A DNA stretch of 20,535 nt, from positions 1 to 20,535 of IMG/VR virus record IMGVR_UViG_3300027759_003333; one strand, given 5' to 3'. Positions 2,959 to 20,535 of the stretch are shown piece after piece. Position 1 is the stretch's first letter, and every line of letters starts with the position of its first letter. This DNA comes from a virus. The notes beneath the pieces are model-generated. The model searched no databases, was not told the DNA's origin, and saw only the letters and a list, made by a program, of their open reading frames with translations. The translations under genes were made by a program, and so were the position numbers.

Positions 2959-3363
2959 TTAGTACCAATAGTGACGGTTGTGGAAGTTAAGCGCGTTACA
3001 CGGGGTTGAATATCGGTGAGCAATGTACTTGAGACCACTGATAATTTGCTCTCTAGGATCTGACTTTGTTTCTCTAAGTAGCTGAGCAATTCCGAAAGCA
3101 CTAGATCGGGGATTGTCCGCTTGGTGGTCAAACCTGCTCTCACGGGCCCAAAGGGTGACAAGGCAGGCTTGCTGCTTTCTCCCCCACCCGTGTATGAGGT
3201 AAGCGTAACGCTTCGATACACGTATGTTTTCACGCTTCTCCTCCATCGTAGTTTTCTTTACTATCGGTTTGGGTATTGGCAAGTTCCCCGTGTGATGTGC
3301 TGGTACTAGCAACCATACGAGTATTACCGCTAATATCAATCCAATTCTTTCCCTCTTGCTCAT
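2959..3363 (-). CDS. membrane-anchored lysozyme/transglycosylase-like protein
   Basis: The 134-residue product starts with a short basic stretch and a hydrophobic segment IGLILAVILVWLLVPAHH (residues 7-24), a signal anchor or signal peptide. The C-terminal domain reads LVTLWARESRFDHQADNP then SSAFGIAQLL and GLKYIAHRYSTPCNALNF, the pattern of small actinobacterial transglycosylase/lysozyme-like domains. Glu75 in ARESRFD is the expected catalytic acid; Cys67 and Cys122 could form a disulfide. It would cut peptidoglycan, probably for host lysis. The start 3363 has AAAAGG upstream but makes the gene overlap the upstream one by 134 bases; a start at ATG 3246 would remove the hydrophobic segment. 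Being last in the leftward operon is unusual for a lysis gene. Confidence 0.75.
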   Translation of the reverse strand: MSKRERIGLILAVILVWLLVPAHHTGNLPIPKPIVKKTTMEEKRENIRVSKRYAYLIHGWGRKQQACLVTLWARESRFDHQADNPRSSAFGIAQLLRETKSDPREQIISGLKYIAHRYSTPCNALNFHNRHYWY

Positions 3364-3514
3364 CTATTGCCTTTTCAATCCCAAGCAGCTGCTTGTATGT
3401 GTCAGGGTACAGGTGTGAAAGTTTCGCTAACGCTCGATCTCTAGCTCTGCGATAATTGCGATTATTAACTGCTTGATTGGTGGCGGTTTTTATACGCCGG
3501 TCTAGGTTGTCCAC
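3230..3514 (-). CDS. small basic phage protein (unknown function)
   Basis: The 94-residue product has a conserved-looking N-terminal half: NNRNYRRARDRALAKLSHLY, PDTYKQLLGIEKAIDEQEGK and NWIDISGNT. I recall this arrangement in many small actinophage proteins of unknown role. The last 45 residues are Ser/Thr/Asn-rich and lie in the stretch that overlaps the lysozyme-like gene in another frame, so their composition may be shaped by that gene. GTG 3514 has a strong site, AAGGAG, five bases upstream. The helical basic part could bind nucleic acid, but that is a guess. Confidence 0.7.
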   Translation of the reverse strand: MDNLDRRIKTATNQAVNNRNYRRARDRALAKLSHLYPDTYKQLLGIEKAIDEQEGKNWIDISGNTRMVASTSTSHGELANTQTDSKENYDGGEA

Positions 3515-3523
3515 TCTCTCTCC

Positions 3524-3769
3524 TTATTGTCTGCTGAAAGCGATAGCAGATACTACCGCACTTGTTATATCTATTGGTTGCCCTACCAAGTGAGCGTCAT
3601 CTGCGTCACTATCCCACGCAGATACTATTAACCGACAATTTACTGGGCTATTGCGAAATTGTATGATCGCCTCATAGCCCGACTCTCCGCCCCATAGGGG
3701 CGTGCCGGTGCTGTCTACGACTTCATATAGGTTTATTAAACCTGTCTTAGTTGGATGAAAGCTACTCAT
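3524..3769 (-). CDS. small hypothetical phage protein
   Basis: The 81-residue product is rich in beta-strand-like segments (INLYEVVDSTGTPLWGG, IIQFRNSPVNCRLIVSAWDS) and has no recognised domain. ATG 3769 is preferred over ATG 3781 because GAGG lies six bases upstream and because it overlaps the tiny gene before it by the same 8-base ATGAGTAG pattern used twice more in this operon. The gene ends nine bases before the next start. Confidence 0.65.
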   Translation of the reverse strand: MSSFHPTKTGLINLYEVVDSTGTPLWGGESGYEAIIQFRNSPVNCRLIVSAWDSDADDAHLVGQPIDITSAVVSAIAFSRQ

Positions 3770-3866
3770 TATCAGCCTCATAACAGGCGTAGCAAGTCCA
3801 ACCCTCTGCCATTAGGTCATCATCTAACTGATCGCAAGCGCAACCCTTAGTCATTACCTTACTCAT
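3762..3866 (-). CDS. 34-residue Cys-rich mini-protein
   Basis: The reading frame gives MSKVMTKGCACDQLDDDLMA followed by EGWTCYACYEADNE. It has CxC and CxxC motifs 14-15 residues apart, enough for one zinc site. GAGAGG lies nine bases before the ATG. Both ends use an 8-base overlap: its start ATGAGTAA overlaps the preceding stop and its stop sits in ATGAGTAG of the next gene. No family is recognised. Its size is below most gene-calling limits, so it is probably missing from automatic annotation of relatives. Confidence 0.6.
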   Translation of the reverse strand: MSKVMTKGCACDQLDDDLMAEGWTCYACYEADNE

Positions 3867-3960
3867 TTATCGAATCCTCTCTCCCAAAGTGATTATCGCA
3901 AAAGTACCAATCGGCCAAGCTCTGATCTTTACACTCTTGATAGTGACAGGTATTACTCAT
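3859..3960 (-). CDS. 33-residue Cys/His mini-protein
   Basis: The frame reads MSNTCHYQECKDQSLADWYF then CDNHFGREDSINE. Cys5, Cys10, Cys21 and His24 could make a CCCH zinc knuckle. It starts inside the end of the upstream gene and ends inside the next start, each time by the shared sequence ATGAGTAA, which is strong evidence for a coupled chain of translated genes. No known family is recognised. Confidence 0.6.
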   Translation of the reverse strand: MSNTCHYQECKDQSLADWYFCDNHFGREDSINE

Positions 3961-4129
3961 TACTCTCTCCCTCTCTCTCGATTATTATTCCGACTTCGCC
4001 TAACGCCTTAACCATACGCATTAAGTTTTTAGCTGCCTTCTCTCCCTCTCCCGCGTCTATTTGGGTGAGTGCTAGGTTCCGGCACATATTGGCTTTAGCC
4101 AATAGATATTCTTTAGTTGGTTCGCTCAT
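3953..4129 (-). CDS. small helical hypothetical protein
   Basis: The 58-residue product starts MSEPTKEYLLAKANMCRNLA and appears almost wholly helical, with a repeat-like ALTQIDAGEGEKAAKNL segment that resembles a TPR-type helical pair. ATG 4129 is preferred to the in-frame ATG at 4147 because it overlaps the stop of the upstream gene as TAATG and has GGGTAGG before it. Function is unknown. Confidence 0.65.
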   Translation of the reverse strand: MSEPTKEYLLAKANMCRNLALTQIDAGEGEKAAKNLMRMVKALGEVGIIIEREGESNE

Positions 4130-4266
4130 TAGCCTACCCTTTCCCATACATCATTAAGAATTGCGTTCTGCCACTCACCGCAACCTTCGCAAACCACGTC
4201 ACCAACGCCGGTAACTAACAACAGATAATCGCCGGTGCCACATTTTTCGCAATCAAAATTGTTCAT
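4129..4266 (-). CDS. 45-residue zinc-ribbon mini-protein
   Basis: The product begins MNNFDCEKCGTGDYLLLVTG and continues with VCEGCGEWQNAILNDVWERV. Two CxxC-Gly knuckles (C6-x2-C9 and C26-x2-C29) separated by a beta-hairpin-like stretch form a standard zinc ribbon. ATG 4266 overlaps the upstream TGA by one base, and its own TAA overlaps the next ATG by one. It may bind nucleic acid or act as a protein adaptor; no evidence decides between these. Confidence 0.7.
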   Translation of the reverse strand: MNNFDCEKCGTGDYLLLVTGVGDVVCEGCGEWQNAILNDVWERVG

Positions 4267-4577
4267 CAGTTTCTCTCCTCTACGAATAGATAGTGCTTAC
4301 CTTCACGTTGAAAGTAATCGTAAGTAGTAGTGCCGCCGTCAATTACGTACCACTCGCCACCGCCGGAATCGGCAATAGCCTCTAAGATGTCATACCAGTA
4401 TTCACCCTGATACCAGGCATTACTCTCGAACTCTTTAAGAGTTAGCCCAGCTACCTTACTCACGTAACCGTCTACCGGTGAGGTAAAAGATAATCCGCCC
4501 TCTACCTCATTTAGTTCTATATCTGCCCAGATTACGCCGCGCTTGTTGCGCTCGTAGTGTTTAGTTATCGTACTCAT
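4266..4577 (-). CDS. hypothetical phage protein, 103 residues
   Basis: The product has an acidic, aromatic-rich sequence with SFTSPVDGYVSKVAGLTLKE in the middle and EWYVIDGGTTTYDYFQREGK toward the end. No catalytic motif or known domain is recognised. ATG 4577 is chosen because GGGAGAGG lies seven bases upstream and the start overlaps the preceding stop as TAATG; an in-frame start at 4607 would lie inside the upstream zinc-ribbon gene. It is one of the larger genes in this chain. Confidence 0.65.
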   Translation of the reverse strand: MSTITKHYERNKRGVIWADIELNEVEGGLSFTSPVDGYVSKVAGLTLKEFESNAWYQGEYWYDILEAIADSGGGEWYVIDGGTTTYDYFQREGKHYLFVEERN

Positions 4578-4723
4578 TAGGCAGCCTCTCCCGAACACGG
4601 GTGACAATAGATACCCTCGCCAATTTTCATAACGTAACTAGGCAGCTTTTCTCCGTTGCCTAGCGTTATGTACAACGCCTCGCTTGATCCGCAACCTTTA
4701 CAACTTGCTATTTTCTTAGCCAT
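4577..4723 (-). CDS. 48-residue zinc-ribbon mini-protein
   Basis: The product starts MAKKIASCKGCGSSEALYIT and ends with IYCHPCSGEAA. The CKGCG and CHPC pairs are about 31 residues apart, a zinc-ribbon arrangement with a beta-rich middle. The ATG directly follows the TAA of the upstream mini-protein gene (TAAATG), and the stop overlaps the next ATG by one base. Function is unknown; a family match is not recognised. Confidence 0.65.
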   Translation of the reverse strand: MAKKIASCKGCGSSEALYITLGNGEKLPSYVMKIGEGIYCHPCSGEAA

Positions 4724-4852
4724 TTATTCGCTCTCTCTTTCTTGTAAGCAGATAACGCAGATACCGGCACGCTCTACGAGCACGCCTTCAATCTCACCGG
4801 TATCGGCGCAGGGTAGGCAATATTCTCTCTCATTACTATCTACTTTTAACAT
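4724..4852 (-). CDS. 42-residue zinc-ribbon mini-protein
   Basis: The product reads MLKVDSNEREYCLPCADTGE then IEGVLVERAGICVICLQERE. CLPC and CVIC form a four-Cys site with a 17-residue spacer, typical of a small zinc ribbon. Its start overlaps the upstream stop by one base (TAATG). There is a purine-rich tract, GAGAGAG, at its end that precedes the next gene and probably serves as that gene's ribosome site. Confidence 0.65.
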   Translation of the reverse strand: MLKVDSNEREYCLPCADTGEIEGVLVERAGICVICLQERESE

Positions 4853-5007
4853 TACGCGCTCTCTCTCATCTCTTGGCGCCATAACCTAATTGCCTCGCGC
4901 TTGGTGTAACCCCAATAGCTGCGCTTTAAGAAATAATGATCGCCTTCGCCTTCAATTACGCCATAAATAAGCCAAGCGCCACTAGGCGCTAGTTTCTCTA
5001 TTGTCAT
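4852..5007 (-). CDS. small hypothetical protein with GYTKREA motif
   Basis: The 51-residue product contains WLIYGVIEGEGDHYFLKRSY and WGYTKREAIRLWRQEM. A Y-x-GYTK-x-EA-x-x-x-F/W motif is familiar from small actinophage proteins of unknown role. ATG 5007 has GAGGG nine to ten bases upstream. An upstream in-frame GTG at 5100 would extend it by 31 residues across two strong hairpins and has no clear ribosome site, so it is not preferred. The stop overlaps the next start as TAATG. Confidence 0.65.
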   Translation of the reverse strand: MTIEKLAPSGAWLIYGVIEGEGDHYFLKRSYWGYTKREAIRLWRQEMRESA

Positions 5008-5040
5008 TAGCTTGCCCTCTTTCTCTCTTATTAGTGTGTT

Positions 5041-5090
5041 GCCCTCTCGGTGAGAGGCCACGAGGGAGAGCCTACCGAACTCTCCCCCAT
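5041..5090 (-). promoter_or_regulatory. tandem hairpins in the leftward operon leader/intergenic gap
   Basis: In a 102-base gap, CCTCTC (5043-5048) pairs with GAGAGG (5052-5057) around GGT, and GGGAGAG (5064-5070) pairs with CTCTCCC (5080-5086). Shorter CTCTC/GAGAG pairings between the two stems would be mutually exclusive with them. There is no T-run, so they are not ordinary terminators. On the leftward strand a 12-base ATGGGGGAGAGT (5079-5090) is repeated at 6477-6488. Confidence 0.45.
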
Positions 5091-5109
5091 AGTCAAGCAC
5101 CGAACGCGG

Positions 5110-5298
5110 TTAGCTGGCTACGTGTACGTAGTCCACGCCGTTTAGTTTCATAAGCAGCACGGTTATCTCGTAGCTCTTAACCTTGCGCCGCCCTGCCTGC
5201 GCCTGAAATAGTGGCACCGCTAGCTGCTGCGCTTGGTAGGTAGTTTCTGCCTCGATAACTAGCTCTTTCTCTCTCCATATTGCGCCGTAAGTGTTCAT
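5110..5298 (-). CDS. small hypothetical phage protein
   Basis: The 62-residue product starts MNTYGAIWREKELVIEAETT and continues YQAQQLAVPLFQAQAGRRKV, KSYEITVLLMKLNG. The pattern of an aliphatic strand, an AETxYxAQQxA helix and a final strand before 'LNG' is familiar from small actinophage proteins that have no known role. A GAGAGAGGG tract lies six bases before ATG 5298, and the start overlaps the upstream stop by four bases (ATGA). It is followed by the hairpin-bearing gap. Confidence 0.7.
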   Translation of the reverse strand: MNTYGAIWREKELVIEAETTYQAQQLAVPLFQAQAGRRKVKSYEITVLLMKLNGVDYVHVAS

Positions 5299-5441
5299 TC
5301 CTTGCCCTCTCTCTCGTTTAACTTGCGAACTCTTTCCATACCAGCGCGATAAAATTCAACCGCGCTAGTGCTTGCCCACGCAATAAACCAAATAACGAGC
5401 AGTAGCTCTATGGCTTGGATCCAGCCGTGAAGGTAGTTCAT
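5295..5441 (-). CDS. 48-residue single-pass membrane protein
   Basis: The product starts MNYLHGWIQAIELLLVIWFI followed by AWASTSAVEFYRAGMERVRK. One hydrophobic helix (about residues 8-30) is followed by a basic, amphipathic tail, so it is probably a small inner-membrane protein with its C-terminus in the cytoplasm. Its size and topology would suit a holin-like or superinfection-related role, and the operon ends in a cell-wall hydrolase, but no family is recognised. Start overlaps the upstream stop by one base (TAATG) and its stop overlaps the next start by four. Confidence 0.65.
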   Translation of the reverse strand: MNYLHGWIQAIELLLVIWFIAWASTSAVEFYRAGMERVRKLNEREGKE

Positions 5442-5809
5442 TAGAGCCACCGCTGCTTAATCTTGTAACCTGCGCGCTCTTGCCCGTGAAATAACACGCT
5501 AGAAAGGTTATAGACAAGGTGGAAACCCATATCCATTCCGCAACCGTTCACTTTAATAGTGTTATGCCCGTTACGGTCGCTTACGCGCTCACCTAGAGCT
5601 TGCGCTGCTTGGTAGGTAATGTCATAAATATCATTACCCTGCGCGACCTTTAGGGAGATGTGGCGGGTCATACCGCTAGCACTAACCGACCTTAGCACCG
5701 TGTAAACGGTTGGCTCGTTGCCGTTAAAATACTCTTTCAATAACTCTTGCTTGGCTAGATCTTGGTCGGTAATTCCCAATAGCTGCGCCTTAATTGACGT
5801 GTTAGACAT
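5441..5809 (-). CDS. conserved phage protein with GCGMDMGFHLVYNLS motif
   Basis: The 122-residue product has TVYTVLRSVSASGMTRHISL (residues 34-53), then YDITYQAAQALGERV and VNGCGMDMGFHLVYNLSSVL (88-107). I know this motif pair from a phage protein family of unknown function that is widespread in phages. ATG 5809 is preferred to 5848 because AAAGAGAG lies just upstream and the extra 13 residues would run through a hairpin region. The Ser-Arg/His and Cys-Gly-Met-Asp patches look like a ligand or catalytic site, but no activity is known. The stop overlaps the next start by one base. Confidence 0.75.
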   Translation of the reverse strand: MSNTSIKAQLLGITDQDLAKQELLKEYFNGNEPTVYTVLRSVSASGMTRHISLKVAQGNDIYDITYQAAQALGERVSDRNGHNTIKVNGCGMDMGFHLVYNLSSVLFHGQERAGYKIKQRWL

Positions 5810-5851
5810 ATAGCTCTCTCTTTCTTGGTAGCTGGCGAGTGATCTCATCAG

Positions 5852-5882
5852 GCAGCGCGTAACGCTGCGACCGCCGAGGCGG
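5852..5882 (-). promoter_or_regulatory. tandem GC-rich hairpins in an operon gap
   Basis: In the 82-base gap between two leftward genes, GCAGCG (5852-5857) pairs with CGCTGC (5863-5868), and CCGC (5871-5874) pairs with GCGG (5879-5882) around a CGAG loop. There is no T-run on the leftward strand. Together with the pair at 5041-5090 this makes two gaps in the operon filled by double hairpins, suggesting RNA processing, stability or attenuation sites. Confidence 0.4.
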
Positions 5883-5891
5883 TTTCGATCT

Positions 5892-6122
5892 CTAAGGCTT
5901 GATAGCTGCGAGCAGCTGCTCGTTTAGTAGGTGCGTGGTGCGCTCTAGTATTGCGGCGATAATGTCTAGTAGCTCATCATCACCGAGAAAGTCACCGCCT
6001 AGTTCATAAGCTAGGCCTATGAGTTCTACGGCTACGTTATTAGGGTGAGTATCCTCGTGTAGGACATAATCGGCAAAGCTCTCGTTAGTGTCTAGTATGG
6101 CCTCGATCTGCTTTAGTTTCAT
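5892..6122 (-). CDS. small acidic hypothetical protein
   Basis: The 76-residue product is mostly helical and acidic: MKLKQIEAILDTNESFADYV, then VAVELIGLAYELGGDFLGDD and ELLDIIAAILERTTHLLNEQ. No domain is recognised. GGGAGAA lies about ten bases before ATG 6122. The gene starts four bases after the stop of the upstream mini-protein gene. Confidence 0.65.
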   Translation of the reverse strand: MKLKQIEAILDTNESFADYVLHEDTHPNNVAVELIGLAYELGGDFLGDDELLDIIAAILERTTHLLNEQLLAAIKP

Positions 6123-6126
6123 TAGA

Positions 6127-6237
6127 CTATTCTCCCTTTATTTCGTTTAGGCAACCCTCGCAGGTTGCGCCCCAAGGCTCGACTGTTGCGCCTTTAGTTA
6201 TATCTTTAATCACGTCTCCGCAAAGATTACAGTTCAT
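6127..6237 (-). CDS. 36-residue zinc-ribbon mini-protein
   Basis: The product reads MNCNLCGDVIKDITKGATVE then PWGATCEGCLNEIKGE. Two CxxC motifs (residues 3-6 and 26-29) surround a short beta-rich segment: a minimal zinc ribbon. ATG 6237 overlaps the upstream stop as TAATG. It is the first of six Cys-motif mini-proteins in this operon. No known family is recognised. Confidence 0.65.
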   Translation of the reverse strand: MNCNLCGDVIKDITKGATVEPWGATCEGCLNEIKGE

Positions 6238-6422
6238 TAGATCTCGACCGCCTTCGATACTGCCTCGATCTGCTCGCCCATAATTCTTAGCGGCTCGTCT
6301 AATAGATAGCTGGTTAGGTCGTAATTGCTTAACACGTAAGCAATAGCTTTCGCGTTATAACCTTCATTAAGTAGGCACTTTATAACTACTTTAGCGAGTT
6401 CTTTCTCTATTTGCTTATTCAT
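6237..6422 (-). CDS. first gene of the leftward operon, hypothetical
   Basis: The 61-residue product, starting MNKQIEKELAKVVIKCLLNE, is helical, with YNAKAIAYVLSNYDLTSYLL in the middle. The segment NAKAIAYVLSNYDL could be a winged-helix or helix-turn-helix-like unit but is too short to claim. GAGAG lies about nine bases before ATG 6422. It is the gene nearest the central repeat region, so the leftward promoter must lie to its right. Confidence 0.6.
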   Translation of the reverse strand: MNKQIEKELAKVVIKCLLNEGYNAKAIAYVLSNYDLTSYLLDEPLRIMGEQIEAVSKAVEI

Positions 6423-6553
6423 ATTCTTAGCTCTCTTTCGTGGTTGGTAGGTGATCCACTAAGAGAAAGATACGGCACTCTCCCCCATTACGCAACTCTT
6501 AAAGCAAGGTTTCTTTTAACTATTTGGGGCAGCTTGGGCAGCTATCGAGGGCG

Positions 6554-6584
6554 ACCTCGACCGGTGGGGATCACCTCGACCGGT
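6554..6584 (+). repeat. two copies of ACCTCGACCGGT, 19-base spacing
   Basis: ACCTCGACCGGT occurs exactly at 6554-6565 and 6573-6584, with GGGGATC between. The 19-base phase is close to two helical turns, so bound proteins would face the same side of the DNA. It is the leftmost of the repeats in the non-coding region. Confidence 0.8.
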
Positions 6585-6627
6585 ACGCCTTGGCCTTGGT
6601 AATAGCTCGCGGCCTGATAGCTCTACG

Positions 6628-6712
6628 GGTTGGCAGGGTTTGGGGTTGGATAGCTGCGAACTATTGGCTCGGCCTCGGTTGGTTGGCAGCTCATCGGGTC
6701 ATCGGTTGGCAG
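6628..6712 (+). repeat. three copies of GGTTGGCAG
   Basis: GGTTGGCAG occurs at 6628-6636, 6681-6689 and 6704-6712. Its core GTTGGC is the reverse complement of the GCCAAC core repeated at 6785-6800, so the two arrays face each other. GGTTGGC at 6704-6710 is exactly complementary to GCCAACC at 6795-6801. Confidence 0.8.
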
Positions 6713-6784
6713 GTTATCGGTTACTTAATTAGTTAGCGCGAGAGGGCTAAGGGTTGCCGAGGGGTTAGTCACCATTCTAGCCCG

Positions 6785-6874
6785 TAGCCAACTAGCCAAC
6801 CTTTAGCCAGCAATAAGGGGCAGACAGTAGGCAGACAGGGGGCAATAGCCAGCAATACGGCCAGCAGGCCAGCA
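6785..6874 (+). repeat. TAGCCAAC / TAGCCAGCAATA iteron-like array
   Basis: TAGCCAAC stands in perfect tandem at 6785-6792 and 6793-6800. TAGCCAGCAATA occurs at 6804-6815 and 6846-6857, and CCAGCA recurs at 6861-6866 and 6869-6874. GGCAGACAG is also doubled within the array (6819-6840). The stretch is C/A-rich, opposite to the G/T-rich stretch to its left. Iterons of this type bind replication initiators or terminase (general knowledge); which applies here is not shown. Confidence 0.75.
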
Positions 6875-6982
6875 AAGCCGACCCCATATCGTTAAAAATA
6901 ATGCTGCGTGTGTATATACTCCCCAAATAAATATATTTCCTAAAGTGAAAGCCCCTGAACTGGGGTTATGTAGTTAATAATA

Positions 6983-7002
6983 ACTGTGACGCGAAACACA
7001 GT
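6983..7002. promoter_or_regulatory. dyad ACTGTG-N8-CACAGT, possible operator
   Basis: A perfect 6-base dyad with an 8-base spacer, 20 bases in all, lies 27-40 bases upstream of the candidate promoter at 7029. The geometry suits a dimeric repressor or activator. It could also fold as a short RNA hairpin if transcribed from further upstream. Confidence 0.45.
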
Positions 7003-7028
7003 AGCAGATGCGGTAAACGGTCTAAATT

Positions 7029-7046
7029 TTCTGCCTTATATATAGT
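7029..7046 (+). promoter_or_regulatory. candidate promoter for the folded RNA
   Basis: TTCTGCCT-TA-TATATAGT: the sequence includes TATA and TATAGT, close to a -10 box, preceded by A/T-rich AAATTTT. No good -35 box is visible. The 14-position pattern TTCTGCCTNNTATA recurs at 7226-7239 before the terminase gene, which supports a shared phage-specific promoter element. Confidence 0.45.
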
Positions 7047-7049
7047 AGA

Positions 7050-7180
7050 GGAGCAAAGCGGGGTTAAGAAGCTTTGCGACGAAAGGTTGGCCTCTAACGA
7101 GGCCCCTAGGCCGAGTGTAGCTTTACCCCTCACTACGCTGTGGCTTGTTCGGGAGTTTACTCCCGCCTACGGCGGTTTTT
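7050..7180 (+). ncRNA. candidate structured RNA ending in a terminator
   Basis: Four stems are visible in order: GCAAAGC (7053-7059) with GCTTTGC (7071-7077); GGCCTC (7089-7094) with GAGGCC (7099-7104) around TAAC; GTAG (7117-7120) with CTAC (7133-7136), weak; and CGGGAG (7150-7155) with CTCCCG (7160-7165) around TTTA. The loop of the first contains GGGGT (7060-7064) and the loop of the third contains ACCCC (7125-7129), which can pair. The last stem shares CCG with the terminator stem that follows, so the two exclude each other. It may be a small RNA or the leader of the virion operon with an attenuation switch. No known RNA family is recognised. Confidence 0.55.
7163..7180 (+). terminator. 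intrinsic terminator before terminase gene
   Basis: CCGCC (7163-7167), TAC loop, GGCGG (7171-7175), then TTTTT (7176-7180): a short but all-GC stem with a T-run on the plus strand. There is no plus-strand gene upstream in the non-coding region, which is why an RNA transcript from about 7045 is proposed. Its first three bases also belong to the CTCCCG arm of an upstream hairpin. Confidence 0.75.
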
Positions 7181-11348: not shown

Positions 11349-11489
11349 ATGAATAAAGGATCACAAGCCCCAGCTCCAATGTCTAAGCCTATCCACGGCG
11401 CAGCAGGCGCAGGCGCTAAGGTAACAGGCGGCGACGTTAAGATGCCTTTCGCTGGAGCACCAAAGCCAGGTAAGAAAGTAAAGAAGTAA
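11349..11489 (+). CDS. 46-residue Ala/Gly/Lys-rich virion-operon peptide
   Basis: The product reads MNKGSQAPAPMSKPIHGAAG, AGAKVTGGDVKMPFAGAPKP and ends GKKVKK. It has a near-perfect ribosome site, AGGAGGTG, five bases before ATG 11349, so it is probably made in quantity. Low-complexity, basic and probably unfolded alone, it could coat DNA or lie in the head, but no function is recognised. Too short for most gene callers. Confidence 0.75.
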   Translation: MNKGSQAPAPMSKPIHGAAGAGAKVTGGDVKMPFAGAPKPGKKVKK

Positions 11490-11738: not shown

Positions 11739-12159
11739 AGACGCTACTAACCCAATGCAGGGTGTATCAGGTCCTGGTCCATACGCTAAGCGTACAGATT
11801 TACAATACAGCCCTGATACTTATGGCGCAGGTGTTGAGATGGCCGCACAAAAGGCTGGCGCTCCACTTGCTACAACAGGCGGTGTAAAACTTTCACAGGC
11901 TCCAACAGTTGGCGGCAGCGCTCTTGCTGGTATTGGGCTATACGATCAAACTCAACGTCCTAATGAACCAGTAACACAAGGCGCAGACGTAGGCGCAGGC
12001 TTGGGATCTGATTCTTTAATGATGGCAAAGCCAGCAGATGACTCAGAGTTTAGAATGAAAATTGAATCCGTAAAGCCAGTGCTTGCTTATATTGCAGACC
12101 TGCCTAACACTTCTCCAGAAACTCGCGCTGCGATCAAAGAGTTATGGAATATGCAGTGA
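11728..12159 (+). CDS. virion-operon protein, Gly/Ala-rich, unknown function
   Basis: The 143-residue product begins MALEDATNPMQGVSGPGPYA, is Gly/Ala/Pro-rich for about 100 residues and ends with a folded-looking helical unit FRMKIESVKPVLAYIADLPN and SPETRAAIKELWNM. AGGAGG lies six bases before ATG 11728. I recall a similar plan (N-terminal PxGVSGPGPYSxRTD segment) in virion-operon proteins of actinophages, without known role. It overlaps both neighbours. Confidence 0.7.
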   Translation: MALEDATNPMQGVSGPGPYAKRTDLQYSPDTYGAGVEMAAQKAGAPLATTGGVKLSQAPTVGGSALAGIGLYDQTQRPNEPVTQGADVGAGLGSDSLMMAKPADDSEFRMKIESVKPVLAYIADLPNTSPETRAAIKELWNMQ

Positions 12160-15100
12160 GTTTATGGAATCGAATTGGTGATATAGCTTCGACCATTGCT
12201 AAAAATACGGTCAAATTTGGTGGCGAAGTCCTCGGTGGTGCCGGCAGTGTTGCACGCGTTGGCTGGGATATCGGTACAGCGCCTTGGAATGATGCCGCTG
12301 AATACAACGGTTTTGCTAATACATTAAAGAATGCTTGGGCACCAGAGAGCAAAGACATAATTAAACCATTGGCATCAGCCGGTGGAGCAATTATGAAAGT
12401 ACCTGGAGTTCAACCTACTCTTGAACGTATTAACTATATTAATCAACAATACATTCGTGAGCCTTTAACTACATTTAACCTTGTACAAGGTGATATCAAT
12501 AGTGGTCGAGTACCAGTAACAGATATCTTTAATCCTAACGAATGGCGTAAAGCCTACACAGGCGCTCAAGAAATTTCATTTGGCCAATCAGTATTAGGTG
12601 TATACCGGTCATACTACGATCCAAAGTTTAATATCTATGACCCACGTGAACGCGAACAAGCCTTTAGCAAAAGCGCTTGGGGTAAAGGATTATCTGGCGG
12701 CATAGATACGCTAGCTCAGATCTTTGGCGATGTAACAATTGTTGGGTCTAAAGCCGGAGCAGCCCTTAAAGCAAGCAAGTTAGTAACTGGTGAATTAAAG
12801 AGCGCAGACATTGTTGCTAAGGCAGCAGAAGATATTACTAAAGCGCAGTATGGCGAAGTAAACCGTTTTACTAAGCCTATTCAAGATTTTACTGATAACA
12901 ATTCTATCTACGCAATTAATCATCCAATGATTAAAGCATCAAATCAGCCAGCACTACTTGCTCATCTACTTGGTCAGTCTACTGATAAAGATACTACTGC
13001 TCTTATTTTGCGCACAGCAACTGGTGATCCTGCTGCTATGGATGAACTTGCGTTAGCACGTGCCGATATGAAAGATGCTTTAGCTGCTGCTCGTGGTGAT
13101 TTATCGGCAGTAGACGAATATAAATTATTTTCAGCACCAGATGGAACTGGAATGATCCCATTCCTTAATGATAATCCTACTGTTATTGCTGAAGCTGAAG
13201 CAAATTATGCAGCACTTGCTAAAGCAGATACTTTATTTGCAAAGATGATGGGACTTGGTAAGGGCGGCGGCTCACTTGCCCGCACAACTGGTGTGCTTAC
13301 TCAGGGCGTTGAAGATGTTATTGCTAAATCACGTTCTGCTCGTTTTTATGACAAGCCTGTTGGAACTGCTAGCATCGAAGTATTCCAGCCAACACCATTT
13401 CACCGTTTATACCAAAAGATTTCTTGGGCAGAAAATGAACGCCCTGCTGGCATAGTTGACTTTGACGATCCTGATTCATACAAAGAAGTTGTAGCAACTC
13501 TTGAGCGCTTGCGCACAAGCACCGCTTTGCCAGGCGTTCCTGCTTCAATAAAAAGAATCAATGTGCTTTCAGACGAACAAGCCAACTCTTTGCTTGATTC
13601 TTATATGGGAGCTGCTACCCCAGAAGCCCGTAGTTTGGCTATGCTAAATATCGAAGGCGCTGGCGTTCGTGCTATTGCAGCTAAATACAATATTGATGCA
13701 GAAATAGCAGATCAACTTTATAATACATATCAAGGTGCTCGCACATCTGGCATAAGGTCTATTAAAGACAGAGGATTTATGGTTGATCTTGATGGATCAC
13801 CAATCTTAGTTCCGCAATTTGAATCTCAAACTGCTAACTATCTCCCAATAATGGATTTTGATTTATTAGATCGTCTATTAAAAGAAAACTCCTCAGCGCT
13901 TCAAGCGTTAAAAGGTGGCATAGTAAACCCAGTTATTAATTCTTTTGATATGCTACAAGATCTTTTTAAGGCTGGAGCACTATTACGCCTTGGTTATACA
14001 ATACGTAACGGTGTTGATTCACAATTACGTATTGCCTCAGCTCTTGGTGCTATGACATCTTTGCGTCACTTAGGTCCTGGACTTAAAAACATTGTTAATA
14101 ACTCAGTTCGAGTGCCTGCTCGTTTGATTGACACTTACTTACCGGTACACGATGGTATGTCAATTAAAAATGTGCAACAATCTACTACTGCTGTTGTTAG
14201 AGATCTTAAAGATCTTAAAACTAAGATTGCTGAAGGAGAAGCAAAGCTATCTTTGCGTCCTGATAATCTTGATTTAATTGGTGAAGTGAACACTCTTAAA
14301 CTTCTTCAAGAAGAAAAGTTAGCAGTTTATAATCATTATACAGAAATGATTAATAAATTTGGAACTGTCACACCAAAAGACCGAATTGGTAATGGAACTT
14401 ATGACATTACTACTAGCGATGGTACAACTTATCAATTATACGATGCCTTTGGTGGCCCATTAGGTGAGATGTTTAGAAAGATTGCCTCATCTGGTAATAC
14501 TTTCCAACGTATGGTTGAAAGCAATAGCGACTTGTATGCTCGTAAACTTCAAACAAAAGGATACGGCGTAGTACGCCCTACTGATCCTGGTTACTTTGAA
14601 CAATGGGCTCAAACTTTGCGTCAACAGTTTGGTAACTCTGCAGTTATTAAGAAACTTGCTGCTGGAGATAACCTAGAAAGCATTACTAAATGGTTAGTAG
14701 GATCTCCAGAGGGACGTGATCTGCGACGTCGTTTAGGCATTAAGTCTGAAGAAGCGGCAGAACACGTAACAAAGATCAAAGGCTTCTTTGATAACTACTT
14801 GCCTGAATCATCTGGCCTGAGAAGTTCTTTACGCACCCTTACTGCCAACGATTTACGTTCTGCTTTTCCAGATCCAACTACTTTGCCTATTATTCACGGC
14901 CACGTACTTGAAGAAGCCTTGTATAACACCGGCAAATTGAATGTACGTAAAATGATTAACGGAGCTTTCAAATTCTTGGGTACATTGCCTGAGGATACTT
15001 GGGCACGTAACCCTGTTTATATTCAGTTGTATCGCCAAGAGGCTCGCCGTCGTGTTGAGATTACCGCTGGACTTAAAGATGGAAAGTTAACTACAGCAGA

Positions 15101-16808
15101 TCAAGAAGCAATTATGTCAGCATCTCACAAAGTAGCAGTACGTGAGATGAAAGGTATCTTGTTTAACATTGAACGCCGTACAAACTTAGCAACTGCTATG
15201 AAGTTTATTAGCCCATTCTTTTCAGCACAAGAAAACGCTTATAAAACTTGGATGAAATTTGCTGTTGCCAATCCAGCAATTATTAACCGTGGTTACAACG
15301 TATGGCAAGCGCCTAATCGTTCTAGCCTAGTAACAGATCAAGACGGTAATGTTGTACCAGAAGGTCAGACTTCCGGTAACGATGTTATCTGGGTAAGCGT
15401 TCCTAAAGTATTCCGTAATATCCCAGGATTGAACTCGCTTACTGAAATGGGTATTCCAAAGCAATCATTAGATATCATCTTTCAAGGTGGTATGGATGTC
15501 CTTTACAATAAAGGCAACCCAAATGTGTTTGGTGATATCTTCCCAGTAGGACCTTATGTAGCAATTCCTATCAGTGAACTCGTCAAGAAGATGCCTTCGC
15601 TAGAAGATTCTTTTAAGTGGGCGCTTCCTTATGGCCCAACAAAGGATATTGCTTCTGGACTGCTACCGGCTTGGGTAAATAAAGCACGAGCAGCTACTAA
15701 TGAGTTAGATGATCCACAGTTTGCTAGAACCTATGATCTAATATTTGCTACAGAGCAAACACGCGCTCGTCGCAATGGTAAACCTCCTGTTAAGCCTGAA
15801 ACTATTATGAGAATGACTCAGGATTACTGGAAGATGCGTATCGCTTCTAACCTGATCCTGCCGTTTGCTCCACGCTTTGACAGCCCGTACAAATTCTGGA
15901 TTGAAAAATCTCGTGAGTACAAGCGCAAGTTTGGTTTAGAAGCAGATGCTAAGTTCCTTGATGACTTTCCAGAGTTCTTTGCCTTTACAGCATCTACTTC
16001 TAAGAACCCAGCAAAGGTTGACTATACAATCAAGGCTGTTGAGAACATTCAAAAGTATCCAGATCTGATAAATGAACTTGCTAACATAGAGCCAAAACTT
16101 ATTGGAACTATTGTTAACGATAAAGACGGTTATAAGTTTTCTCAAGCTGCTTACCAGTATCTTTACAACAAGAATATTACTCCTAACTCAAGAGAAAAAT
16201 TCTTATCTGCTCAAGACCCACTTGTTGCCCAAAAGGCCAACGAAGCAGAAAAAGGCTGGATTGTATTTAGCCAGTTCCGTGATGCGATTGACGCAACCCT
16301 TCAAGAGCGCGGCTTGACTTCTATTCAACAAAAAGGCGCTGAAGATTTAGCAGCAATTAAATCAGCAGTAATTACTAAACTATCAAGACAAACAGATGCT
16401 CAAGGCAATCCGGTAATTGATCCTAAGTCTGGACAGTTTGTACGTACAGCTTGGTATGACGACTACCTAGATTCAGATGGTTCTAAGACCAACCGAGTTG
16501 TAGCAGGTCTTGCCAAAATTATCGGTAATGAAAAATTTATGGCTGACAATTCCAAGAGCACAACTTGGAAGTCTGTTGGAATCTACTTTGATTTCCGTCA
16601 AGCAATTGCTGGTGAGTTATCTAAGCGCACAGTTAAATCAATTGATGCTAAGGCAAATGCTGATTTAAGAATTATGTATGATGCAATTGTTCGAAAGTTA
16701 AAGAATGACGACCCTATCGGGTTTGGATCATTATACGAAAGATTCTTGACTCAAGATCTAATTGTAGATAAGTATTTAACACCTCAGACTCCGAAGGAAA
16801 ACAAATAA
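12144..16808 (+). CDS. giant virion-type protein (1554 residues), putative internal/ejection protein
   Basis: At 4.7 kb this is the largest gene. Sequence seen: an N-terminal Gly/Ala-rich amphipathic region (SVARVGWDIGTAP and similar), a central unit around KAGALLRLGYTIRNGVDSQL, a long helical region with several AxxxA patterns, and a later unit NIERRTNLATAMKFISPFFS followed by ENAYKTWMKFAVANPA. The RLGY-IRN and ISPFF motifs recur in very large phage proteins thought to enter the cell with the DNA (recollection). No lysozyme, protease or polymerase motif was found. ATG 12144 overlaps the preceding gene by 16 bases; GTG 12156, overlapping it as GTGA, is an equal alternative. Its stop overlaps the next ATG by one base. 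A tail or MuF-like role is possible. Confidence 0.7.
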   Translation: MEYAVSLWNRIGDIASTIAKNTVKFGGEVLGGAGSVARVGWDIGTAPWNDAAEYNGFANTLKNAWAPESKDIIKPLASAGGAIMKVPGVQPTLERINYINQQYIREPLTTFNLVQGDINSGRVPVTDIFNPNEWRKAYTGAQEISFGQSVLGVYRSYYDPKFNIYDPREREQAFSKSAWGKGLSGGIDTLAQIFGDVTIVGSKAGAALKASKLVTGELKSADIVAKAAEDITKAQYGEVNRFTKPIQDFTDNNSIYAINHPMIKASNQPALLAHLLGQSTDKDTTALILRTATGDPAAMDELALARADMKDALAAARGDLSAVDEYKLFSAPDGTGMIPFLNDNPTVIAEAEANYAALAKADTLFAKMMGLGKGGGSLARTTGVLTQGVEDVIAKSRSARFYDKPVGTASIEVFQPTPFHRLYQKISWAENERPAGIVDFDDPDSYKEVVATLERLRTSTALPGVPASIKRINVLSDEQANSLLDSYMGAATPEARSLAMLNIEGAGVRAIAAKYNIDAEIADQLYNTYQGARTSGIRSIKDRGFMVDLDGSPILVPQFESQTANYLPIMDFDLLDRLLKENSSALQALKGGIVNPVINSFDMLQDLFKAGALLRLGYTIRNGVDSQLRIASALGAMTSLRHLGPGLKNIVNNSVRVPARLIDTYLPVHDGMSIKNVQQSTTAVVRDLKDLKTKIAEGEAKLSLRPDNLDLIGEVNTLKLLQEEKLAVYNHYTEMINKFGTVTPKDRIGNGTYDITTSDGTTYQLYDAFGGPLGEMFRKIASSGNTFQRMVESNSDLYARKLQTKGYGVVRPTDPGYFEQWAQTLRQQFGNSAVIKKLAAGDNLESITKWLVGSPEGRDLRRRLGIKSEEAAEHVTKIKGFFDNYLPESSGLRSSLRTLTANDLRSAFPDPTTLPIIHGHVLEEALYNTGKLNVRKMINGAFKFLGTLPEDTWARNPVYIQLYRQEARRRVEITAGLKDGKLTTADQEAIMSASHKVAVREMKGILFNIERRTNLATAMKFISPFFSAQENAYKTWMKFAVANPAIINRGYNVWQAPNRSSLVTDQDGNVVPEGQTSGNDVIWVSVPKVFRNIPGLNSLTEMGIPKQSLDIIFQGGMDVLYNKGNPNVFGDIFPVGPYVAIPISELVKKMPSLEDSFKWALPYGPTKDIASGLLPAWVNKARAATNELDDPQFARTYDLIFATEQTRARRNGKPPVKPETIMRMTQDYWKMRIASNLILPFAPRFDSPYKFWIEKSREYKRKFGLEADAKFLDDFPEFFAFTASTSKNPAKVDYTIKAVENIQKYPDLINELANIEPKLIGTIVNDKDGYKFSQAAYQYLYNKNITPNSREKFLSAQDPLVAQKANEAEKGWIVFSQFRDAIDATLQERGLTSIQQKGAEDLAAIKSAVITKLSRQTDAQGNPVIDPKSGQFVRTAWYDDYLDSDGSKTNRVVAGLAKIIGNEKFMADNSKSTTWKSVGIYFDFRQAIAGELSKRTVKSIDAKANADLRIMYDAIVRKLKNDDPIGFGSLYERFLTQDLIVDKYLTPQTPKENK

Positions 16809-18619: not shown

Positions 18620-19789
18620 ATGGCAACAGTAGATCCATTATTTAAGCGTGACGCTGCCAAAGAAGCAGCAGCTGTTAAAGCTGGCAGAATTACTCAAGCA
18701 GAACTTGAAGCACGCGGCGGTATTAACGCCTCTGGTTATTATGGTGACTCTTGGGATTCTAAGAAGAACCTAAGTGATGCTGAATATGCTGCTGCTTTAG
18801 CTAAAGGTGGTGGCGCTGCTATTAACGCAGCAACTGCTGCTAAAACAAGCAACCTTGGCTTAGGTGCTGGCACAGATGGAGCTACCGGTACTACTGTAGC
18901 CCCTGTAACTCAGAATAACTCAGGACGTCAATCAGCATATGACACTCTTTACAATGAGTTTAAGAAATATGGTTTAACTTCTTTAGTAGAGTCAGTCAAA
19001 AATTTGATTACTGATGCCAACACTTCTCCTTCTCAGTTGTCAATTGCTTTACAAAATACCAAAGAATACCAACAACGTTTTTCTGCTAACCAAGACCGCA
19101 TTAAGGCTGGTCTCCAAGCATTAACCCCAGCAGAATATATTGGGCTGGAAGATCAATACCAGAACATTATGCGTAACTATGGATTGCCCAATTCTTACTA
19201 CGCAAAAGATTCCATAGGTACTCAATCTGGTTTTAGCAAACTTCTTGCCAATGACGTATCTGCTACTGAGTTAGAAGATCGAATTGCTACCGCACAACAG
19301 CGTGTACAGAACTCTAATCCAGAAGTTCTTAGAGCGCTAAAGCAGTTCTACCCTGATATCAGCAACGGCGATATTTTATCTTACGCACTTGACCCACAGA
19401 ATGCTTTAACTAATATCAAGCGCAAAGTAACTGCTGCTGAAATTGGTGGAGCAGCACTAGCCCAAGGCTTACAAGCCCAAGGCGGCACAGCTGAGTCATT
19501 AGCCGGTATGGGAATTACTAAAGCCCAAGCGCAACAAGGTTATGTTGATGTTGCTCAAATGGTTCCTACTGGTTCAAAACTTGCTGATATTTATGGTCAA
19601 CAGCCATACACACAACAGACAGCAGAGGCTGAAATATTTAACTCAGCAGGCGCAGCAGATGCTGCTACAAAGCGCAGAAAACTTTCTGAACTTGAGAAAG
19701 CATCATTCAGCGGCTCATCAGGAGTCGGAGCGCTAGGACGAGATAAAGCCGCTTACGGCATCACATACGGCCAACAAGGCCAGTACTAA
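18620..19789 (+). CDS. virion structural-type protein, 389 residues
   Basis: The product has a low-complexity start with an ITQAELEARGGINASGYYGD segment, then a folded part: YDTLYNEFKKYGLTSLVESV (106-125), LQNTKEYQQRFSANQDRIKA, GLQALTPAEYIGLEDQYQNI and LANDVSATELEDRIATAQQR. It ends with ALAQGLQAQGGTAESLAGMG, LSELEKASFSGSSGVGALGR and a Gly/Tyr tail. This plan, with RFxxNxxRxxAGLxxLxPAEYxxLE, is one I associate with actinophage virion operons. Function is unknown, probably head or head-tail. GGGGT precedes ATG 18620. A 122-base gap with strong folding potential follows. Confidence 0.75.
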   Translation: MATVDPLFKRDAAKEAAAVKAGRITQAELEARGGINASGYYGDSWDSKKNLSDAEYAAALAKGGGAAINAATAAKTSNLGLGAGTDGATGTTVAPVTQNNSGRQSAYDTLYNEFKKYGLTSLVESVKNLITDANTSPSQLSIALQNTKEYQQRFSANQDRIKAGLQALTPAEYIGLEDQYQNIMRNYGLPNSYYAKDSIGTQSGFSKLLANDVSATELEDRIATAQQRVQNSNPEVLRALKQFYPDISNGDILSYALDPQNALTNIKRKVTAAEIGGAALAQGLQAQGGTAESLAGMGITKAQAQQGYVDVAQMVPTGSKLADIYGQQPYTQQTAEAEIFNSAGAADAATKRRKLSELEKASFSGSSGVGALGRDKAAYGITYGQQGQY

Positions 19790-19791
19790 AT

Positions 19792-19882
19792 AGACCTACC
19801 ACTAGAACCACCGGCCTAGTGGAGTGAAACCAATTCCGGTAGCAGAAGCCATATAGGTAATCCCCAGAACTATATGAGGTCT
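19792..19882 (+). promoter_or_regulatory. candidate structured RNA element upstream of scaffold/capsid
   Basis: An outer stem AGACCT (19792-19797) with AGGTCT (19877-19882) encloses hairpin CCACTAG (19799-19805) with CTAGTGG (19816-19822), a weak ACC/GGT hairpin (19829-19831 with 19838-19840), and CATATAG (19850-19856) with CTATATG (19870-19876). ACCGG in the first loop (19810-19814) can instead pair with CCGGT (19836-19840), a possible pseudoknot. No T-run follows, so it is not a standard terminator. It lies in the only sizeable gap of the virion operon, 30 bases before the scaffold start. Confidence 0.6.
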
Positions 19883-19911
19883 GCGATAACTTAACGAATG
19901 GGAGATGGACT

Positions 19912-20379
19912 ATGTCCAACTACGACTACGAGGATGACGACGATACAGAATCAACTCTTGATTCTAATGATCTCGTTAAACAACTGCGCAAAGCAAACAA
20001 GCTAAAGGATAAAGAACTTTCCGATCTGAAATCTCAGTTCGAAGGTCTATCAAAAGCGCAAAGAGAACGAGCTATTAAGGACACCCTCGAAGCTCGCGGA
20101 GTGAATAGCAAAATTGCTAAATTCATTCCATCGGACATTGACCCAACTGAGGAGTCTTTGTCTAAGTGGCTTGATGAAAACGGCGACGTTTTCGGATATC
20201 AGGCTGCTGAATCCAACCAGAATAATGTTGATCCAGCGCAAGCTGCAGCATATAAGCGAATGAGTAATGCTACTGAACAGGGCCAAACCCCTGATGCTTC
20301 AGATGACATTCTTCGTAAACTTATGTCTGCTAATTCGAAAGAAGAACTTGACGACATCATCAGAAGTTCTGGACTCTAA
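19912..20379 (+). CDS. capsid scaffold protein
   Basis: The 155-residue product is acidic at the start (MSNYDYEDDDDTESTLDSND), then has a coiled-coil-like segment LVKQLRKANKLKDKELSDLK, SQFEGLSKAQRERAIKDTLE, a central SKIAKFIPSDIDPTEESLSK unit and a short C-terminal helical unit. Acidic N-terminus, coiled coil, and position immediately before the capsid gene are the usual signs of a scaffold. It would shape the procapsid and then leave. GGGAGATGG stands before ATG 19912. The SKxAKFIP-DIDPT-E-LxKWLxENGDVF pattern is one I recall from actinophage scaffold proteins. Confidence 0.85.
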   Translation: MSNYDYEDDDDTESTLDSNDLVKQLRKANKLKDKELSDLKSQFEGLSKAQRERAIKDTLEARGVNSKIAKFIPSDIDPTEESLSKWLDENGDVFGYQAAESNQNNVDPAQAAAYKRMSNATEQGQTPDASDDILRKLMSANSKEELDDIIRSSGL

Positions 20380-20405
20380 TTAACTAACCGAAAGGCATAA
20401 CCCAA

Positions 20406-20535
20406 ATGGCAATTCCATCAGGTACGCTGACCGGCACATCCGCAATTAGCAATCTAGTCCAAACAGCGTACGATCAGTACGTTCGTATGGCACTACGTAG
20501 CATTCCAGTAATGCGTGCTCTTGCAGACGTTAAGC
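20406..20535 (+). CDS. major capsid protein, N-terminal part (3' partial)
   Basis: Only 43 residues are visible: MAIPSGTLTGTSAISNLVQT then AYDQYVRMALRSIPVMRALA. The segment AYDxxVxxALRSxPxxRxLADxK matches the N-terminal arm of major capsid proteins found in actinophages, and the gene follows the scaffold. GAAAGG lies about ten bases before ATG 20406. The rest of the gene is outside the window. Position carries most of the weight. Confidence 0.85.
   Translation, partial: MAIPSGTLTGTSAISNLVQTAYDQYVRMALRSIPVMRALADVK

Follow-up and report, generated by a model that had tools for sequence, protein, structure and literature searches.

The coat-protein operator of phages MS2 and R17 is a hairpin at the start codon of the replicase gene. 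In phages T4 and RB69 the translational operator of gene 32 comprises a 5' RNA pseudoknot and an A-rich ribosome-binding region (PMC535899, PMC3014915). A pseudoknot also takes part in ribosomal-protein autoregulation of the rpsO/S15 type, and a 2010 review knew of one viral pseudoknot involved in translational autoregulation (PMC3014915).

We analysed 20,535 nucleotides of viral DNA (IMG/VR record IMGVR_UViG_3300027759_003333; this whole stretch is called the window) in which a gap of 122 nt precedes a putative scaffold gene. The original prediction had placed a multi-branched RNA element in this gap; the gap is present at 19790-19911, and the tight packing claimed for the rest of the virion operon holds provided that a 46-aa ORF at 11349-11489 is counted. 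The features of the locus, in window positions, are as follows.

18620-19789: virion-operon gene upstream of the gap (phrog_8424)
19790-19911: leader gap of 122 nt between the phrog_8424 and phrog_7813 genes
19792-19798, plus strand: 5' conserved strand AGACCTA, its CCU invariant in clade 1
19799-19822, plus strand: hairpin P1 (19799-19805 with 19816-19822), 7 of 7 pairs double-changed, 99.8% of cells paired
19810-19814, plus strand: 5' strand of the pseudoknot, ACCGG, within the P1 loop
19836-19840, plus strand: 3' strand of the pseudoknot, CCGGT, among the top mutual-information pairs
19842-19846, plus strand: 5' strand of P3, GCAGA, pairing with 19880-19884; 100% of cells paired, 3 double-change pairs
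19847-19849, plus strand: internal loop AGC opposite AGG (19877-19879), AGC and GG columns invariant
19850-19876, plus strand: hairpin P4 (19850-19856 with 19870-19876), 6 of 7 pairs double-changed
19862-19865, plus strand: P4 apical loop CCCC, conserved as C-rich
19880-19884, plus strand: 3' strand of P3, TCTGC (pair counts given with the 5' strand)
19886-19904, plus strand: A-rich single-stranded linker with the Shine-Dalgarno GGGAG (19900-19904)
19906-19918, plus strand: start-codon hairpin P5, TGGAC (19906-19910) with GTCCA (19914-19918), the AU of the start codon in the loop
19912-20379, plus strand: putative scaffold gene of 155 aa (phrog_7813, function unknown in PHROGs)
20406-20535, plus strand: major capsid protein gene (phrog_1357), cut by the window end

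We take the gene at 19912-20379 to encode the scaffold on the basis of its position before the capsid gene, its synteny and the annotation of its homologues, which are named scaffolding protein in the Streptomyces phages Dennebes, Vorvolakos and others. Elsewhere in the window, a virion-operon gene at 12144-16808 (1554 aa; phrog_10618, unknown function) shares about 24% identity with the giant protein of Beephvirinae, and its product is probably located inside the virion or ejected from it; a block of small ORFs without an assigned family lies on the minus strand at about 2959-7157, divergent from the virion operon.

Like the gene 32 operator, the leader carries in a phage mRNA a covarying pseudoknot upstream of an A-rich single-stranded stretch with the Shine-Dalgarno and the start region; unlike it, the fold is larger, has an extra P3/P4 hairpin, precedes a scaffold gene and not that of a single-strand DNA-binding protein, and occurs in many phages of actinobacterial hosts. 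As in MS2 and R17, the start codon is held in a short hairpin of the phage message, conserved in the freshwater clades and missing from most Streptomyces-type phages, although here the phage has double-stranded DNA and a pseudoknotted leader precedes the hairpin. With rpsO/S15 the element shares a pseudoknot in a translational operator region; it differs in the gene concerned and in having no Rfam match. The gene 32 pseudoknot and the RNA-phage start-codon operators would thus be the closest precedents in working, the likeness being one of RNA layout and membership in neither being claimed. In the whole window, Rfam 15 gave no match at the gathering threshold and a permissive search returned sub-threshold chance matches only; clades 2 and 3 gave no match up to E 5. 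We found no earlier description of the element in the open-access literature, so that one elsewhere is possible. From these comparisons, the element appears to be a new RNA family that would work like known phage translational operators.

Taken alone, the sequence of the gap is unremarkable. Its single-sequence fold has a z of -1.6, with 13 of 200 shuffles folding as well, and the two perfect 7-bp hairpins that had been predicted, which exist as P1 and P4, have their equal in 1163 of the 20413 stretches of 122 nt across this DNA. The evidence comes from relatives. A search with the scaffold protein yielded 80 viral contigs with 67 distinct leaders that align across the whole element and make up clade 1, the clade of the window. 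When P1, the pseudoknot, P3 and P4 were imposed on these 67 relatives, 96.4% of cells were standard pairs and 18 of 24 pairs were double-changed, a result matched by none of 500 shuffles, and sliding the partners by 1-3 columns lowered pairing to 21-47%. The complement ACCGG/CCGGT between a loop and a downstream strand, also predicted, proved to be a covarying pseudoknot, which appears in relatives as ACCGG/CCGGT, ACTGG/CCAGT, ACCAG/CTGGT, ATCGG/CCGAT and GTCAG/CTGAC. The P1 and P3 cells of clade 1 include 49 G-U and no A-C combinations, which implies that a plus-strand RNA is under selection; at the closing wobble of P1 (A19806/C19815), A.C alternates with G.U among relatives. Judged from these alignments, the gap 19790-19911 harbours a real, conserved structured RNA.

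As read from the same alignments, the fold consists of an H-type pseudoknot and, after it, a single long, interrupted hairpin (P3/P4), with the conserved strand order P1-PK-P1'-PK'-P3-P4-P4'-P3'. At the base of P1, C19796-T19797 are able to pair with A19823-G19824, leaving A19798 as a bulged purine; RNAalifold lengthens P1 by these two pairs across the bulge. In clades 2 and 3, too, P1 has a bulge. Conserved unpaired bases surround the variable helices, namely an AAGAC junction in several clades, the AGC/NGG internal loop retained in all of them and the C-rich apical loop; extra long-range tertiary pairs were not evident among the top mutual-information pairs. The idea of a conserved RNA at this site, for which an alignment of relatives had been proposed as the check, survived that comparison; the multi-branched fold closed by an outer 6-bp stem (19792-19797 with 19877-19882) did not. 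Covariation of the outer stem is not above that of shuffles (0.106 vs 0.119), the arms present in most relatives, AAGCCT/AGGTCT, fail to pair fully, and its 3' arm overlaps the P3 helix (19842-19846/19880-19884), which is paired in all cells.

Gap lengths in clade 1 range from 118 to 131 nt, and frames 0, 1 and 2 after the upstream stop are represented by 21, 22 and 24 sequences, respectively, implying that the gap is non-coding; a readthrough or frameshift pseudoknot was likewise discarded, as the same distribution leaves no constant open frame from the upstream into the downstream gene. ARAGORN recognises no tRNA or tRNA-like gene in the gap, in agreement with the lack of tRNA arms noted earlier. 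An internal promoter, another function proposed at the outset, found no backing: the sole match (19389-19416) lies outside the gap, and such matches are no more frequent than in shuffles. A direct DNA search of the window region against phage records gave zero matches.

Wherever the searches, which covered freshwater phages, a Planktophila phage and Streptomyces phages, found a scaffold homologue whose leader was complete, the element was present, and the freshwater clades that carry it reach down to about 41% scaffold identity. Clade 2 includes an isolate, the Planktophila phage LanE43AprF5 (OX376641; PMC10202952), which has 39-41% scaffold identity and carries the element. The covariance model R1 detected it in all 36 clade 2 loci searched, L118 being cut by its contig end; these matches are not fully independent of the model, because clade 1 and L082 supplied the sequences for R1. 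An independent alignment of clade 2 gave 97.7% of cells paired and 15 double-change pairs. Clade 3, composed of Streptomyces phages of the Beephvirinae, has in common with the window phage a terminase (about 43% identity), the giant virion protein (about 24%) and a scaffold (28%, E 1e-7). At the homologous site of these phages a tRNA array precedes the element, and the scaffold gene starts 19-22 nt after the latter. Their 8 distinct sequences gave 99.1% paired cells and 14 double-change pairs; added soil contigs had the element in 25 of 25 loci, and the combined Streptomyces and soil set reached 98.1% paired with 22 of 29 pairs double-changed, none of 500 shuffles equalling it on any of five measures. 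Model R2, derived from Streptomyces phages only, detected the leader of a freshwater clade 2 locus (L163) in the right place (E 2.9e-5); model R3, from the soil set plus L163, detected 4 of 11 clade 1 leaders tested and missed the leader of the window itself. Two further freshwater clades carry the element. All four helices covary in three independently aligned clades. Between lake phages of actinobacteria and cultured Streptomyces phages, the element preserves its structure more than its sequence.

Its placement is equally constant. We scanned viral and genome contigs with the DNA pattern of the P3/P4 hairpin alone; among the matches listed (at least 120 stretches), 117 were directly upstream of a scaffold homologue, 2 were cut by contig ends and 1 was a chance match. 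The distance from the end of P3 to the start codon is 25-32 nt in clade 1, 29-37 nt in clade 2 and 19-22 nt in the Streptomyces phages, and it stays short and fixed while the upstream neighbour varies from the stop codon of an ORF to a tRNA. Six phages that have only a related capsid protein (L193-L198) gave no match up to E 5 with R1 and R2 and up to E 1 with R3. Among bacterial and archaeal genome contigs, a search with the scaffold gave no relative, and the motif scan of genome contigs returned one Actinomycetota MAG contig with a phage scaffold and one chance match. A binned Actinomycetota MAG contig (L318, RHAS01000055.1) has the element and the scaffold gene, as expected if the host is an actinobacterium or if a phage contig was binned wrongly.

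A start-codon hairpin of 4-9 bp was found in every distinct start region of clades 1, 2, 4 and 5, with arms TGGAC/GTCCA in clade 1, GTTGC(T)/(A)GCAAC in clade 2, ATTGC/GCAAT in clade 4 and GTTGC/GCAAC in clade 5. The pairing survives a switch of the Ser2 codon between TCC (GGAC/GTCC) and AGC (GTTGC/GCAAC) and of the Asn3 codon between AAC and AAT (GTTGC/ATTGC), and one locus (L226) retains GTTGC/GCAAC although its protein starts with MATS and not MSN. As a control, 1 of 93 distinct capsid-gene starts had a hairpin of at least 5 bp at that place. A helix equal to the real one arose from 2-5% of shuffled spacers in clades 2, 4 and 5 and from 25% in clade 1, so that clade 1 on its own is weak evidence for this hairpin. 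Its register relative to the start codon varies by clade; the arms are thus not homologous columns, and it is the occurrence of a hairpin that is conserved. In freshwater phages the Shine-Dalgarno either adjoins the hairpin or forms part of its lower stem. The hairpin is not universal, since it is missing in most Streptomyces-type phages; arms GGAC/GTCC occur in L343 and L344. The P4 loop CCTAG is complementary to the Shine-Dalgarno CTAGG over 5 nt in 8 of 8 aligned Streptomyces phages. As a universal feature, pairing of the P4 CCCC loop with the Shine-Dalgarno was rejected, being no better than with shuffled loops in clades 1 and 2; sequestration by the P4 loop is unsupported because in clade 2 the complementarity is mostly of 3 nt and does not exceed that of shuffled loops. 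Separately, the capsid-gene leader in the window (20383-20400) and in clade 1 scaffold-capsid gaps has AACTAACCGAAAGG. This resembles an A-rich stretch (AACTAA..GAAT) found ahead of the scaffold Shine-Dalgarno in relatives, and the two may share an initiation motif.

Post-transcriptional control of scaffold (and capsid) synthesis is suggested by three features: the exclusive placement, a spacing to the start codon that stays constant, and the structure around the start codon. That the element acts in cis on scaffold/capsid expression, as originally proposed, is the reading best supported by location, covariation and the start-codon hairpin; in its specific form, a structured 5' leader of the scaffold-capsid message exerting translational control, we hold it at about even confidence. 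If the gap is transcribed, as we infer, the pseudoknotted module (P1, pseudoknot and P3/P4), which precedes the scaffold start by about 20-35 nt, would most likely serve as a domain for recognition and folding. It would be engaged by a partner acting in trans, for which the scaffold or some other assembly protein is the simplest candidate, or else by the ribosome itself, and in freshwater phages this engagement would set the opening of the start-codon hairpin. Whichever the direction of this putative control, the supply of scaffold would be tuned late in infection, and that of capsid too, through coupling.

The main rival is definition or protection of the 5' end, which may act together with translational control. 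According to this explanation, a late polycistronic RNA is cut at the 5' edge of the element, the cut being made by tRNA 3' processing where the phage is of the Streptomyces type; the scaffold-capsid mRNA gains a fresh 5' end, which the pseudoknotted P1 then guards against 5'-dependent RNases (RNase J/E). RNA processing remains in contention because the element directly follows a tRNA in these phages: in the 24 soil or Streptomyces-type loci where a tRNA was detected, CC and P1 come immediately after its discriminator base, whichever the tRNA (Val in most; Met, Ile or Asn in three). Such constant abutment is no less expected from 5'-end processing than from translation, and the element and scaffold also stay together while the upstream neighbour changes. 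However, no tRNA occurred within 260 nt upstream in any freshwater leader match (271 matches, from fewer independent phages because some loci were found by more than one search), and a different cutter would be needed there; a structure 1-2 nt past the discriminator may hinder RNase Z, and the start-codon hairpin is left unexplained. The tRNA being constant in the soil branch and absent in freshwater, we assign the element to the scaffold gene and see the soil-branch tRNA as a mark of its 5' edge, where the tRNA would presumably be cut off. On balance we regard 5'-end definition as possible yet rather unlikely to be the function. The change of tRNA identity (Val, Met, Ile, Asn) with zero spacing kept can be followed in L343:1306-1383, L344:1305-1380, L338:1314-1386, the Beephvirinae loci L184-L191 and L199; three contigs have a single tRNA in the upstream stretch and no array, and an ARAGORN tmRNA call overlapping two genes of a tRNA array (L340:151-412) is probably false. 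A more elaborate proposal, in which a widespread new RNA family makes translation respond to capsid assembly, by letting free scaffold or capsid protein read the pseudoknotted leader and start-codon hairpin and so set the scaffold:capsid ratio, the abutting tRNA of the soil branch being the cutting signal that creates the mRNA 5' end, seems to us doubtful in this full form.

A self-cleaving ribozyme that parts the scaffold-capsid mRNA from the upstream message is improbable. A pseudoknot as compact as this one (about 95 nt), in which unpaired bases are conserved, would suit it, and the HDV-like theta ribozymes (PMC10879173) are a precedent of pseudoknotted phage RNAs adjoining tRNAs, a likeness confined to the Streptomyces-type branch; yet no clade tested has an Rfam ribozyme match, the freshwater clades have no tRNA link and no invariant run of bases around a constant cleavage site was seen. 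The order P1-P2-P3-P3'-P1'-P4-P2' of the HDV-like nested double pseudoknot is not that found here, where P1-PK-P1'-PK' is followed by P3 and P4. A metabolite- or ion-sensing riboswitch governing capsid production is no more credible: conserved unpaired bases around variable helices (AAGAC, AGC/NGG and the C-rich loop) would be expected of one, but the 117 motif-only matches, among those listed, all precede one virion gene and never a metabolic or transport gene. Least probable is a packaging or other DNA-level signal (packaging-RNA-like or a cis DNA element) lying by chance among the head and packaging genes, given that strand-specific G-U pairs and helix covariation indicate RNA and that the element is tied to the scaffold start and not to the terminase or genome ends.

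A phage needs its scaffold and capsid proteins in a suitable ratio, and few cases are documented in which a double-stranded DNA phage controls this at the RNA level. As the structure is conserved from lake phages to cultured Streptomyces phages, its role is testable in isolates already in hand, namely the Streptomyces phages and the Planktophila phage LanE43AprF5. Furthermore, the element would serve as a structural marker of this phage group and of its capsid operon in metagenomes.
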